41,721 nucleotides of DNA from Candidatus Gastranaerophilales bacterium (GTDB lineage Bacteria; Cyanobacteriota; Vampirovibrionia; Gastranaerophilales; Gastranaerophilaceae): positions 1 through 41,721 of the forward strand of contig CANPWQ010000013.1 in NCBI GenBank assembly GCA_947584965.1, written 5' to 3'. Positions 4,889-19,053 of this stretch are shown here, piece by piece. The notes under the pieces were generated by a model. The model did no database searches and was not told where the DNA came from. It saw nothing but the letters and a program-made list of their open reading frames with translations. The translations under genes and the position numbers were made by a program. How positions within the stretch are numbered: position 1 is the first letter of the stretch; the number at the start of each line of letters is the position of its first letter.

Positions 4889-7800
4889 ATGGATACATTA
4901 ATGCATAAAAATACAAAAACATTCGATTTCATCAATGAACAGGTGAATAAGAAATCAATAAATAAGTTATTAGCACAAGTATACCTTGAATTTGGCGGTG
5001 CTAAGACTGCAACACTGGCAGATAACTTAAAAAACTTAGGATATCATTACGCAACAAAATCCGGTACAACAATATCTATTGCAGATTTGTCGGTACCCGA
5101 AGATAAAAAAGAGCTTTTAAATGATGCTGAAAAAGAGATTGAGAAATCAACTCACAGATATTTAAAAGGCGATATTACCGAAGTTGAAAGATACACAAAA
5201 GTTATTGACACTTGGAGTGAAACAACATCAAAATTAACGGAAAGAGTTGTTGAAAACTTTGACAGATTAAACCCCGTATATATGATGGCGTTCTCAGGTG
5301 CAAGAGGTAACTTATCACAGGTATCACAATTAGTAGGTATGAGAGGTTTGATGGCAGATGCGCAAGGACAAATCATTGACTTACCTATTAAATCAAACTT
5401 CAAAGAGGGATTATCCGTTACGGAATATATTATTTCATCATACGGAGCAAGAAAAGGATTGGTTGATACAGCGTTAAAGACAGCCGATTCGGGATATTTA
5501 ACAAGAAGACTTGTTGACGTTGCTCAAGATGTAATCATCCGCGACCACGACTGCGGAACAAAACGCGGTATTATGATGACAGATATTTCAGACGGAGAAA
5601 AAATCGTTGCCCCGTTAACCGAAAGACTGCTCGGAAGAACAATAGCGGAAGACATAAAGGATAAAGACGGAAATGTTATAATCCCCGCAAATACAACAAT
5701 AAACAGAGATGATATAAGAAAGATAAAACCGTTAGATATACATCAATTAAAAGTACGTTCACCTCTAACTTGCGAACTTGAATACGGAATTTGCCAAAAA
5801 TGCTACGGCTGGGCAATGACAACACAAAAGCTGGTTGATGTAGGTGAAGCAATCGGTATTATTGCAGCACAATCAATCGGTGAACCCGGAACACAGTTAA
5901 CAATGAGAACATTCCACACCGGCGGTGTATTTAAAGGCGCAGGTGCGATGAAAGAAATCATCTCAGATGTAGACGGTAAAATAATAACAAAGATATTTAC
6001 AAGAGATTTAAGAACCCGTCATGGTGATAATGTTGCAATAACGGTTCAAGAATCCGATATGGAAATTAAATCAGGAAGTAAAACAAAGAAATATCATATT
6101 CCCTCGGGTGCAATTTTATATGTTAACGAAGGACAGGAAGTTAAAAAAGGCGATAAAATAGCAGTATATGAACCTGTTTCGGGCGGAGACGGAAGCCGTT
6201 TAACGGAAAAAGCAACAAAAGATATTACCTCCGATTTATCGGGTGAAATAGTTTTTGAAGACTTTGTAGCTGACGAAAAGAAAGACAGACAAGGTAACAT
6301 TTCAAGAACCGCAAGTAAAAACGGTATTGTATGGGTATTAGGCGGTGATGTATACAATCTCCCCGGCGGTTCAAGCATACTTGTTGAAGACGGTAAAAAC
6401 GTAAAAGAGGGTGAAAAACTCGCTGAAATTCATATTATATCAGAACACGGCGGTGAAGTCAGACTTGGCGATAATCTCAAAGTGGAAGATGTAAAATTTG
6501 AAGGAAAGAAAATCAAAAAAATCGTTCAAGGTAAAGAACTTACCATTGTAATAGCTTCAATAAGCGCAGCTAACGCTAAATTTGAACAAACAAAGAAAGA
6601 ACAAATTTGGACGGTAAATAAGACAGGCGAAAAATATATCGTTAAAGCTCCTATTGATACGGTAGTTGAAAGCGGTATGATTATTGCCGAACTTATGGAT
6701 GAAGAATATACGGTTCCCTCAAGCGGTGAAATTCGCTATAACGGCGTTGAAGTAGATGAAAACCAAATCATTACAAAACCCGGTGAAGTAATATTTATTC
6801 CTGATGAAATTCATCAGGTAAATAAAGATTCGGCATTAAAAATGGTTGAATCGGGAACATTTGTAACGGCGGGAACTGAAGTCGTAAAAGACTTATATGC
6901 TCACATCGACGGTATCGTTGAGATTAAAGAATTTAACGATATGATACACGAAGTAGTAATCCGTCCGGGTGAAATATACAACTTAAGCGGAATAGGCGAG
7001 CTTAAAGTTGATGAAGGTGAAGTTGTTAAGAAAGGAACGGAAATCGCACCAAAAATAAAAGCTAAGGCAGATTCAATCGTTACAATACTTGACAATGAAA
7101 AAGATACTCTTGAAATCGACGATTTAGAAGAAGATTTAGGGGTAGCTACACTTGATGAAAAATCAATATCAAATCAACCGATACAAATATTGGTAAGACC
7201 GGTTCAAAGATTTAATATTGAAACAAAAGATGTTTCAATTAAATTCAATTCAACCGATGAAGCAATAGATTTAGTGCCGGTAACTCAGCTACAATATAAA
7301 GACGGAGCAAGAGTAAGAAATCTTGACGGAAGCGTACTTACAAGAACCAGTTTGGTACTTCAAATGCAAGGATACTTAAGCCACTTAAAAGGTTTAGTTG
7401 AACTTGACGGTGACAACAATTTAAAAATTGTAGTCCTTGAAAATTTAATTGTAAGAAGAGAAGCAGAGGGACAATCGAAAACATCAGCTTCAATGCAGAC
7501 CGAATTACTGGTTAAAGACGGTGAAATTATAGCACCAAAGACACCTGTTGCGAAAACGCAGGTACTTGCTATAAGCGACGCTGTTGCAAGCATAAAAGAA
7601 AACAATCAGGATGTAAGAAGATTGTTACTTGTATCAGACAGCAGTGAAGTAAAAATTGATTTAAAATCAAAACCAACCGTTAAAAAGGGTGATTTAGTCA
7701 AAATGGATGCCGTAATATCAACAAGCGGAGAAACCTCAGAATATTCGGGTTTAGTTGTTGCCGTTGATAAAAATTCAATAAAATTAAGAGCAGGCCGTCC

Positions 7801-17354: not shown

Positions 17355-17777
17355 CTAACCGTATATAGCCTTAATTCCCTGCAAATTACACAAAAGGCTT
17401 TCAAGTGCGTCTTTATTGCCTCGTTTAATTTGAATGAATTTAAGCACCATATCCCTGCTTGCATCAGATTCAAGAATGTCAATTAATCCCTTAACTTCTT
17501 CTTCGGTAAGATTAAACCTTTCTTGGATTTTAGTTATGTAATTAATATCCAATTCCATTTTTTTTGAAATGAACATATTACCTTTACCCGATAGAAGCCA
17601 GTTAATATTAATATGGCACTTCTCGATTAAAGCACTTAAGAATTTAGGTCCGGGCTGAGCTTCTTCGCGTTCATAGCTGCCGATAGTCCGCACCGGAATG
17701 TCTAACTTAATTGCCAGTTCTGCTGATGTCAGCTTTAGATTTTTTCTAATCTCTTTAATTCTTTTGCCTAACGCCAT
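17355..17777 (-). CDS. XRE-family repressor, phage CI-like
   Basis: A 140-residue regulator. Residues about 4-60 form a helix-turn-helix of the Cro/CI class (ALGKRIKEIRK, then TSAELAIKLDIPVRTIGSYE). NINWLLSGKGNMF follows, a motif typical of CI-like repressors from temperate phages and their domesticated relatives. The remainder is helical (RFNLTEEEVKGLIDILES) and may dimerise; no autoproteolytic peptidase domain is present. The ATG at 17777 is chosen because AGGA lies 7-10 nt upstream; an in-frame extension to 18020 would be non-conserved, hydrophobic and overlap the divergent gene. It faces two small unknown genes across a 207-base region with paired palindromes. Confidence 0.85.
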   Translation of the reverse strand: MALGKRIKEIRKNLKLTSAELAIKLDIPVRTIGSYEREEAQPGPKFLSALIEKCHININWLLSGKGNMFISKKMELDINYITKIQERFNLTEEEVKGLIDILESDASRDMVLKFIQIKRGNKDALESLLCNLQGIKAIYG

Positions 17778-17799
17778 AGTAATTCCTGCTTTAAATTTT

Positions 17800-17817
17800 G
17801 TTACATTATATAGTAAC
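17800..17817 (-). promoter_or_regulatory. Repressor promoter -10 inside a GTTAC/GTAAC dyad
   Basis: On the minus strand TATAAT (17810-17805) would start transcription near 17798, about 21 nt before the repressor ATG. The same bases lie between GTTAC (17800-17804) and GTAAC (17813-17817), a 5-bp dyad with an 8-nt centre that could be the repressor's own low-affinity site. Confidence 0.5.
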
Positions 17818-17890
17818 ACTTCTTGTATATTTGTACATGATATTGTAATATAAATTTTATAATTTATAATAACATGTAACTTCCAACTAA

Positions 17891-17903
17891 TTGTATTATA
17901 CAA
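17891..17903. promoter_or_regulatory. Palindromic operator, copy 1
   Basis: TTGTATTATACAA is a perfect dyad (TTGTAT / ATACAA around one T). It is identical to the copy 39 bp away at 17930-17942. The position between a CI-like repressor and its divergent neighbour suggests a repressor binding site. Confidence 0.7.
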
Positions 17904-17929
17904 CAGATTACATTTTATTGCACTATTTT

Positions 17930-17942
17930 TTGTATTATACAA
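17930..17942. promoter_or_regulatory. Palindromic operator, copy 2, overlapping the forward -10 region
   Basis: A second exact TTGTATTATACAA. It contains TATTAT (17933-17938), a candidate -10 for the 97-residue gene starting at 17985, so occupation would block that promoter. Centre-to-centre spacing to copy 1 is 39 bp, nearly four helical turns, so both sites would lie on about the same face of the DNA. Confidence 0.7.
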
Positions 17943-17984
17943 TTTAATGAAGTAAAAAAAAAGAAAAAAAGGAGTGGGAAAACT

Positions 17985-18278
17985 ATGAAAAAGAAGCATT
18001 TGAGACTTATTGTATCTCATGATCGCAATTGTACAAAAAAAGCAATAATTGAAGATTTAAAAGAAAAAGTAAAAAATCTTTTTATTTCTAAAAGAGAAAA
18101 AATTTATATTTTAAAAGACATCTTAATAAAAATTTATAGAGATTATGAAATTACAACAGGTTACGACTTTGAACCATACTATATAAGAGCCGAAAATAAA
18201 CTTCAAACAATAATTAGGGATAAAAAAGTAGATTATTACTACAATCTTTTAAAAAAATTTCAAAAACAATATATATAA
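17985..18278 (+). CDS. Small basic protein of unknown function (97 aa)
   Basis: Not recognised. A strongly basic, Lys- and Tyr-rich protein: a short N-terminal beta-like stretch (HLRLIVSHDRN) followed by long helices (IIEDLKEKVKNLFI, YILKDILIKIYRDYEI) and a Lys-rich end. There is no membrane segment or signal peptide. AAAGGAG (17968-17974) lies 10 nt before the ATG, so it should be well translated. The next gene begins 18 nt after its stop. Both sit under the repressor-controlled region, so they are probably made together when the CI-like regulator lets go. A nucleic-acid-binding role would fit the charge but is a guess. Confidence 0.7.
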   Translation: MKKKHLRLIVSHDRNCTKKAIIEDLKEKVKNLFISKREKIYILKDILIKIYRDYEITTGYDFEPYYIRAENKLQTIIRDKKVDYYYNLLKKFQKQYI

Positions 18279-18296
18279 CTTGGCAGAGGAACGGGA

Positions 18297-18593
18297 ATGG
18301 ATTGTGTATTGGAAAGGTATAAAAAATTAGCGGAATTAAATTCATTAATAATAAAAACAGAAAAAGTGAACGGAAAATTAATCTTTAACAGGTATTTTAA
18401 TGAAAATGAAGTAAAAATAAGCATAAATGCAATAGCATGGAAAATTACGGACTGGAAAAAATATCAAAAATACAAAATTGAACTTATTATACCTATTGAA
18501 AATATTAAAGATTACTCTGAAAAAAATTTAAAAAAAGAGTTATTAACTTTACTATATAAGGAAATTATGGAAAAAAATAATATAATGATATAA
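18297..18593 (+). CDS. Small protein of unknown function (98 aa)
   Basis: Not recognised. The 98 residues begin with a helix (VLERYKKLAELNSLI), continue with beta-like segments (GKLIFNRYF, VKISINAIAWKI, YKIELIIPI) and end with a Lys-rich helix. AGAGGA (18285-18290) is 6 nt before the ATG. It is 18 nt downstream of the 97-residue gene and probably in the same transcript. Its stop codon lies within the extended -10 box of smpB, 7 nt before that gene's ATG. The alpha-beta-alpha order is compatible with a small RNA- or protein-binding domain, but nothing in the sequence proves this. Confidence 0.7.
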   Translation: MDCVLERYKKLAELNSLIIKTEKVNGKLIFNRYFNENEVKISINAIAWKITDWKKYQKYKIELIIPIENIKDYSEKNLKKELLTLLYKEIMEKNNIMI

Positions 18594-18594
18594 T
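18586..18594 (+). promoter_or_regulatory. smpB extended -10, leaderless
   Basis: TGATATAAT is a perfect extended -10 (TGnTATAAT). Its last T is at 18594, so transcription is expected at 18601, the A of the smpB start codon. No Shine-Dalgarno is present. It overlaps the stop of the preceding gene. Confidence 0.65.
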
Positions 18595-18600
18595 TTTTCT

Positions 18601-19053
18601 ATGAGTAAAAAAGTAATAGCAAAAAATCCTAAAGCGTTTCATGAGTATCATATATTTGACAAATTTAATGCAGGTATGGTGCTGACGGGAACTGAAATTA
18701 AATCAATACGCAAAGGCGGAATAAATTTAAAAGACAGCTTTGTAAAAGCCGAAAATGGCGAAATATACTTATATAATTGCCATATCAATGCTTATGAACA
18801 AGGCAACAGATATAATCATGAAGAAAAAAGAGTCCGAAAACTGTTATTAAATAAAAAAGAAATAAATAAAATAGCAGGAAAAATTAAAAAAGACGGATAC
18901 GCAATAACGGCGCTTGAAGTATATCTGGAAAACGGCTGGGCTAAAATAGAAATAGCTCTGGCAAAGGGCAAAAAATTATACGACAAGCGTGAGGATTTGG
19001 CAAAAAAATCTCAAAATCGCGATATAGCAAGGGCTGTAAAATTTAATAAGTAA
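18601..19053 (+). CDS. smpB: SsrA (tmRNA)-binding protein SmpB
   Basis: Partner of tmRNA in rescue of stalled ribosomes. It is 150 residues, the usual length. Conserved blocks: AKNPKAFHEYHI, GMVLTGTEIKSIR, LKDSF, YLYNCHI, EKRVRKLLL, and near the end GKKLYDKREDLAKK with a basic tail (NRDIARAVKFNK) that enters the mRNA channel. The tmRNA gene itself is not in the window. It lies 3 nt from the convergent dnaX. Because it appears to have its own leaderless promoter, it need not depend on the small genes before it. Confidence 0.97.
   Translation: MSKKVIAKNPKAFHEYHIFDKFNAGMVLTGTEIKSIRKGGINLKDSFVKAENGEIYLYNCHINAYEQGNRYNHEEKRVRKLLLNKKEINKIAGKIKKDGYAITALEVYLENGWAKIEIALAKGKKLYDKREDLAKKSQNRDIARAVKFNK

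Follow-up and report, generated by a model that had tools for sequence, protein, structure and literature searches.

A probable domesticated temperate-phage lysogeny switch beside smpB in a genus of uncultured gut Vampirovibrionia

Introduction

Cryptic-prophage switches are, to our knowledge, known mostly from Escherichia coli. In one of them, DicA/DicC-dicBF, small products that affect the host and infecting phages are kept down by a phage repressor, and release occurs through an antirepressor or by chance switching (PMC10448788, PMC6832061). Another, PaaR2-YdaS-YdaT of CP-933P in E. coli O157:H7, is a lambdoid-type switch that controls small genes and includes a toxin-antitoxin pair together with Cro- and CII-like regulators (PMC8630535). 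Small XRE repressors without a Peptidase_S24 domain, such as ImmR of ICEBs1 and DdrO of Deinococcus, offer a further point of comparison. Both are cleaved by an ImmA/IrrE protease.

Here, we analysed a repressor gene, rep, and two small genes, orfA and orfB, in a stretch of 41,721 nucleotides (the window) on contig CANPWQ010000013.1 of a Candidatus Gastranaerophilales bacterium. Our literature searches turned up nothing on the rep-orfA-orfB locus. Weighing its origin, selection and loss together, we assign a probability of roughly 0.7 to the reading that it is a domesticated temperate-phage lysogeny switch, or immunity region; as part of this reading, the module has probably been kept by vertical descent at a single chromosomal site of the genus.

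Locus organization and comparison with known switches

The first-pass annotation of this DNA described a 140-residue helix-turn-helix repressor with the motif NINWLLSGKG, separated by 207 bp from two small, well-translated genes on the opposite strand. The motif, the reading frames, the coordinates and the strong ribosome-binding site of orfA were all confirmed in the sequence:

17355 to 17777, minus strand: rep, XRE/CI-type repressor of 140 residues
17970 to 17977, plus strand: orfA ribosome-binding site AGGAGTGG, identified from sequence and kept in most relatives
17985 to 18278, plus strand: orfA, 97 residues
18297 to 18593, plus strand: orfB, 98 residues

Integrase, lysis and structural genes, reported as absent, were indeed not seen among the neighbours read. 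The flanking genes are core genes across the genus (aroF-like, Ski2-like helicase, smpB and dnaX), so that the locus does not qualify as an intact prophage. No tRNA or tmRNA gene is present in the window, and a search for a tmRNA/tRNA attachment site or a known RNA adjoining smpB found none. At positions 18580 to 18605, immediately ahead of smpB, ATAATGATATAAT encodes the C-terminal ...IMMI that is conserved in many orfB proteins, and the -10 box of smpB probably overlaps the end of orfB.

By analogy, DicA-DicC-dicBF would be the closest working model for this locus, which is not itself a member of that system. Like the switch of the Qin cryptic prophage, it has a small XRE repressor over an operon of small phage-derived products and no phage production. 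The repressors are of similar length (the DicA model has 135 positions), and the head of Rep matches NCBIfam PRK09706 at E=2e-8, below the cut-off of that model. In contrast to dicBF, the effectors are unrelated, no Cro-like DicC or Rem antirepressor was seen at the rep locus, and the locus has shrunk to two or three genes, which occupy one fixed position in most of the genus. The PaaR2-YdaS-YdaT switch resembles it in logic as well, but the toxin-antitoxin pair and the Cro- and CII-like regulators of that switch were not seen at the rep locus. The likeness to ImmR and DdrO (structures 7t8i and 6rmq) covers the Rep head.

Predicted operators and promoters in the 207-bp gap

We aligned 25 orthologous rep-orfA gaps, to which one gap from outside the genus was added for the operator scan. 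The alignment shows blocks that are far better conserved than their surroundings:

Block 1: GTTACATTAT
Block 2: TTGTAT-17 bp-TAATAT, with TTACAT-N4-ATGTAA across the spacer
Block 3: ATGTAAC
Block 4: TATTATAC
Block 5: TTACATTTTATTGCAC

The conserved dyads follow the pattern TTACAT-N4-ATGTAA. Together with two facing promoters, they give the following predicted regulatory features, in which dyads and palindromes carry no strand:

17801 to 17816: O1, TTACATTATATAGTAA, predicted repressor operator; most relatives, and also two other genera, match TTACAT-N4-ATGTAA here at 9 or more of 12 positions
17823 to 17851, plus strand: predicted orfAB promoter, with -35 TTGTAT at 17823 to 17828, a 17-bp spacer and -10 TAATAT at 17846 to 17851
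17833 to 17848: O2, GTACATGATATTGTAA, predicted operator inside the orfAB promoter, with 9 to 12 of 12 matches in 25/25 gaps
17864 to 17879: O3, TTATAATAACATGTAA, predicted operator with a degenerate left half and a conserved ATGTAAC half-site
17895 to 17923, minus strand: predicted rep promoter, with -10 TATAAT at 17895 to 17900, a 17-bp spacer and -35 GTGCAA at 17918 to 17923
17908 to 17923: O4, TTACATTTTATTGCAC, predicted operator in a conserved alignment block, overlapping the rep -35
17937 to 17952: O5, ATACAATTTAATGAAG, weak predicted operator, TTACATGTTAATGAAG-like in about one-third of relatives and weak in the window
17891 to 17903: palindrome copy 1, containing the rep -10, exact in 3/25 orthologous gaps
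17930 to 17942: palindrome copy 2, not conserved, exact in 2/25 orthologous gaps

O2 is exact in 6 of the 25 gaps and also in G320, G333 and G349, genomes in which the spacing of O1 and O2 is identical as well. Wherever both sites are seen, in this genus and two others, their starts lie 31 to 32 bp apart, about three helical turns. Across the 25 gaps and the one from outside the genus, 104 windows match TTACAT-N4-ATGTAA at 9 or more of 12 positions, versus a mean of 18 in shuffled sequence (maximum 30 in 300 shuffles), mononucleotide shuffles being a generous control. Half-sites number 79 versus 18 in dinucleotide shuffles (maximum 28 of 200), and, the 25 gaps being mutually related, these operator counts reflect excess and conservation alike. 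Taken by itself, the window shows a modest half-site excess (3 versus 0.8, P about 0.04), so the case for the operators rests on the cross-genome comparison. Exact matches are few across 24 genomes, which gives no indication of a wider Rep regulon; those found elsewhere look like chance or terminators, including one downstream of a mutS2-like gene in G000, G027 and G033 that resembles a terminator hairpin.

The first-pass annotation had placed the operators elsewhere, in two exact copies of TTGTATTATACAA lying 39 bp apart, one of them over the likely forward -10. Both copies exist, at 17891 and 17930, but the comparison of the 25 gaps rules them out as operators: they are missing in relatives that retain the repressor, and the predicted dyads listed above would account for the switch instead. 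Copy 1 is exact in G000, G027 and G022, its left arm having drifted elsewhere, and an exact copy 2 is confined to G000 and to G027, the genome closest to it. Within copy 1, TATTATAC contains the minus-strand -10 TATAAT, which is near-invariant over the 25 gaps while the left arm drifts; copy 1 therefore covers a reverse -10, most likely that of rep, rather than a forward one. A separate GTTAC/GTAAC dyad (17800 to 17817), assigned to the repressor's own -10, is real and conserved in most relatives, but it is better read as the first TTACAT-N4-ATGTAA site.

Natural variation helps to assign the blocks. The orfAB promoter block is conserved apart from two genomes that lack both orfA and orfB (G026 and G019); these retain blocks 1, 3 and 4 but not block 2, the pattern predicted by assigning block 2 to orfAB and block 4 to rep. 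The predicted layout is thus that of a phage-type immunity region, in which a repressor gene and an early gene diverge around shared candidate operators and facing promoters. The proposal of a repressor-centred divergent switch is upheld, with operators other than those first suggested.

Distribution and evolution of the module

In most sampled congeners, rep and orfA lie between the Ski2-like helicase gene and smpB, and the loci readable across this site share the order helicase, rep (reverse), orfA, (orfB), smpB. The conservation of the trio beside smpB, which the earlier annotation had proposed to look for, was therefore found as a pair or a trio across most of the genus: orfA is present in most of its genomes (24 orthologues), orfB in about half of them. 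An initial search of 58 relatives placed orfA and orfB in this genus alone, and full-length rep likewise, apart from partial or more distant matches; later searches added G320, a genome of another genus that carries rep and orfA. Most of the named relatives in public databases are Candidatus Gastranaerophilales genomes obtained from gut samples, of rabbit and goat among others. In G021, a lone full-length rep relative with 50% identity (L137, about 6668 to 7096) is situated close to a gene for an amino-acid permease and has neither orfA nor orfB with it.

Several genomes carry reduced forms of the module. G026 and G019 have rep only, G032 has rep with a C-terminal remnant of orfA, and in its sister G008 the helicase and smpB are 50 bp apart, a clean empty site. 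One genome ending at a contig edge (G006) and two unreadable across the site (G015 and G018) were counted neither as present nor as empty, and, the genomes being drafts, some of the apparent losses could be assembly gaps. In the midpoint-rooted helicase tree, many forks of which are weakly supported, G009 and G021, in which no module follows the helicase, fall on one side and the remaining congeners on the other. The module therefore looks ancestral to the sampled congeners except these two, with later loss of orfB, of orfAB or of the whole module. Multiple losses show that it is dispensable.

The remnant in G032 beside the empty site in G008, together with a GC content of only about 20.5% in orfA and orfB (rep 35.9%, window 33.7%), could be taken as signs of a decaying fossil without current function. 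We regard this as improbable, as the ORFs, promoter, ribosome site and operators are intact across most of the genus and dN/dS is about 0.07-0.22 for orfA. For orfB, dN/dS is mostly 0.09-0.22, with values of 0.42 and 0.61 in two close pairs. All three genes are under purifying selection. Between the loci L063 and L064 (G020 and G017), orfA and orfB are identical, with zero synonymous change, while the synonymous divergence of rep, helicase and smpB is 0.13-0.24; recent recombination of the orfAB operon is possible in this pair.

The apparent order of loss, orfAB first and rep last, would also suit an arrangement of the toxin-antitoxin kind: orfA or orfB would be the toxin, Rep a transcriptional safety catch and addiction the reason for persistence. 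Small basic proteins under tight predicted control would be in keeping with it. No toxin family match and no dedicated antitoxin gene were found, however, and orfB has been lost repeatedly while orfA stays, which makes this explanation as doubtful as that of a fossil.

The repressor and its ancestry

Rep consists of a helix-turn-helix head (residues 1-72) and a conserved tail of about 70 residues. HTH_3 matches at E=1e-9 with 38.7 bits, versus a cut-off of 23, which makes it an XRE/CI-type protein, and 28 homologues aligned over their full length share 50-99% identity. In PADLOC, Rep gave generic HTH matches only. No match to Peptidase_S24 was found in its 140 residues, so it lacks the C-terminal self-cleaving peptidase of a lambda-type CI. 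The tail, although highly conserved, gave nothing useful in comparisons with solved structures.

The head is 61% identical to that of a 219-residue CI-type repressor of another genus (L170 in G333), which has Peptidase_S24, and the two share the operator sequence and the O1-O2 spacing. They differ in that Rep carries its conserved tail where the S24 domain would be. Opposite the gene of the S24-containing repressor lie other small genes, and the intervening gap has a matching operator and matching spacing. In L170, L171 and L172 (G333, G349 and G341), such a CI-S24 repressor faces a 77-residue gene and further small genes, with TTACAT-N4-ATGTAA operators spaced as in the present genus, among apparent chromosomal genes; the 77-residue gene was not supported as an orfA homologue.

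An ImmA/IrrE-type protease was considered as an inducer. Peptidase_M78 (PF06114) gave no match in G000 (94.6% complete), a point of difference from ImmR and DdrO, and passed the cut-off in 4 of the 16 genomes searched. Because Rep has no S24 domain and no M78 protease was found in G000, RecA- or ImmA-driven cleavage of Rep is unlikely.

No full-length rep homologue, and hence no exact parent phage, was found in viral contigs. This bears on the idea that the locus confers superinfection immunity alone, Rep silencing incoming phages with the same operators while orfA and orfB are passengers. That rep exceeds orfA and orfB in conservation and stands alone in G026 and G019, and that its operator is common to the CI-S24 repressors of other genera, speak for this idea. 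Nevertheless, orfA and orfB are themselves under purifying selection, among viral contigs none was found to carry a rep homologue, and the switches of G333, G341 and G349 lie among apparent chromosomal genes and not in obvious phages. Moreover, the rep branch is very long (0.67) where orfAB is gone, which suggests relaxed constraint. Immunity alone thus seems unlikely, and the domesticated switch with selected effectors remains our preferred reading.

The orfA and orfB proteins

Pfam, PHROGs, NCBIfam and PADLOC yielded no significant family for orfA or orfB, neither has a solved-structure relative by sequence at a useful E-value, and their fold searches returned no confident fold match. The earlier description of both proteins as unrecognised thus holds for curated libraries; it does not hold for orfA beyond them, as orfA has relatives among phage early proteins.

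The orfA protein is basic and helical, with a conserved N-terminal [HY]L[RK]L[VI] motif, a flexible linker and a helical core. AlphaFold2 predicts four helices, confident at about residues 41-90 (core pLDDT about 91), and a low-confidence stretch after the N-terminal motif, which loosely resembles a sliding-clamp-binding peptide. A first scan of viral contigs found no close relatives, and a profile search reaches relatives in other genera. One relative lies on an IMG/VR viral contig (L131) with large and small terminase genes, in a repressor-facing operon upstream of a replication-protein-like gene, which gives orfA a homologue in a real phage. Another, in a prophage-like region, adjoins a small Cro-like gene, a divergent repressor, a serine integrase and RecT. 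Shorter relatives of the core occur near SSB, a DnaC-like loader and a clamp-like gene, and in G238 near a Cas4-like exonuclease and a DnaD-like helicase loader. In Dulem virus 31, a core relative lies upstream of an exonuclease and a replisome organizer; it is 40% identical to the G238 protein (E 4e-10), and its direct profile link to orfA is weak. The position of these relatives is early, before recombination and replication genes. Judged by sequence comparison, orfA comes from a phage early region and belongs to a small phage early-protein family.

Two observations concern other carriers of orfA-like genes. In genus g22 (L228 and L229 in G168 and G268, also L221 and L226), a short orfA-like gene is kept together with a DnaD-like gene and the gene of an S24-type CI/LexA-like repressor among apparent core genes, possibly as a second, independently domesticated stub. 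Dulem virus 31 (PP511318.1, L237) is classed in Microviridae despite a genome of 35.8 kb with a CI repressor, an exonuclease and a replisome organizer.

The phage link of orfB is weaker than that of orfA. AlphaFold2 gives a confident alpha-beta4-alpha fold (pLDDT 91.6), for which the best fold-search rows are RAD52/Mgm101 (Z 5.0-5.9), tied with LptE-like lipoproteins; among many unnamed viral rows, a few are annotated as recombinase or Erf. A profile search found a 299-residue phage protein in G238 (E 2e-4), which in a reciprocal single-sequence search returned the orfB of G025 (E 9e-4) as one of three matches in 382 genomes. The hhalign probability between orfB and this protein was 71% with the single sequence and 10% once a distant phage protein had been added to make a two-sequence profile. 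Both the 299-residue protein and its relative in phage MW202801 adjoin Cas4-like exonucleases, next to which an annealing protein usually sits. Compared with the phage annealing proteins (RAD52/Redbeta/Erf), orfB is much shorter and has no sequence-family match to RecT, Erf, Sak or Rad52 in Pfam or PHROGs; the similarity of its model to RAD52 rings is weak. We treat an annealing-protein-like domain in orfB as a tentative assignment, somewhat short of even odds. Two other candidates for orfB relatives, the 139-residue third gene of G320 and a 305-residue protein of Dulem virus 31, were not supported.

Proposed function

The domestication suggested in the first-pass annotation agrees with a phage-derived switch that has no other phage genes and is conserved beside smpB in most of the genus. 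For its operation, we infer binding, promoter activity, induction and effector action from the DNA and protein sequences. Repressor dimers would bind the TTACAT-N4-ATGTAA array, whose two core sites lie three helical turns apart. With O2 between the -35 and -10 of the orfAB promoter, Rep binding would shut this promoter, and O3 and O4, which flank or overlap the facing rep promoter, may allow rep to regulate itself. Since the nearest CI relatives of Rep have an S24 self-cleavage domain and Rep does not, its release would be expected to depend not on RecA-dependent cleavage but on an antirepressor, a host signal or stochastic switching. On release, the basic, helical orfA product and the alpha-beta4-alpha, possibly annealing-like orfB product would be made, with phage or host DNA replication or recombination as their probable target.

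A narrower version of the domesticated switch is a repressor-gated anti-phage module, in which an antirepressor or early protein of an infecting phage relieves Rep, and orfA and orfB, as pared-down versions of early replication or recombination proteins of phages, decoy or poison the phage machinery. The phage origin of orfA, the fast evolution and patchy distribution of orfB and the protection of E. coli from lambda by DicB (PMC6832061) are in its favour, and no orfA without rep was seen in the genus, as expected if unrepressed orfA is costly. Set against this, no defence-system neighbour was recognised in the window and PADLOC gives no match for orfA or orfB, so that we hold this version to be rather unlikely, if less so than immunity alone. 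More speculative still, and in our view a long shot, two phage early proteins, stripped down and one of them possibly a minimal strand-annealing domain, may be kept silent by a non-cleavable phage repressor and induced to poison phage replication or recombination, with other genera of the family keeping other repressor-early-gene stubs on the same operator.

Conclusions

The probable domesticated switch centred on rep comprises two or three genes at one site that is fixed in most of this genus of uncultured Vampirovibrionia from the gut. Genomes that have rep only or an empty site provide the natural variation through which its regulatory DNA can be read. The locus yields concrete predicted operators and promoters, and orfA represents a previously unlisted family of small phage early proteins that is now named. 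If orfA and orfB interfere with phages, the locus would show a repressor-gated early operon becoming a defence.
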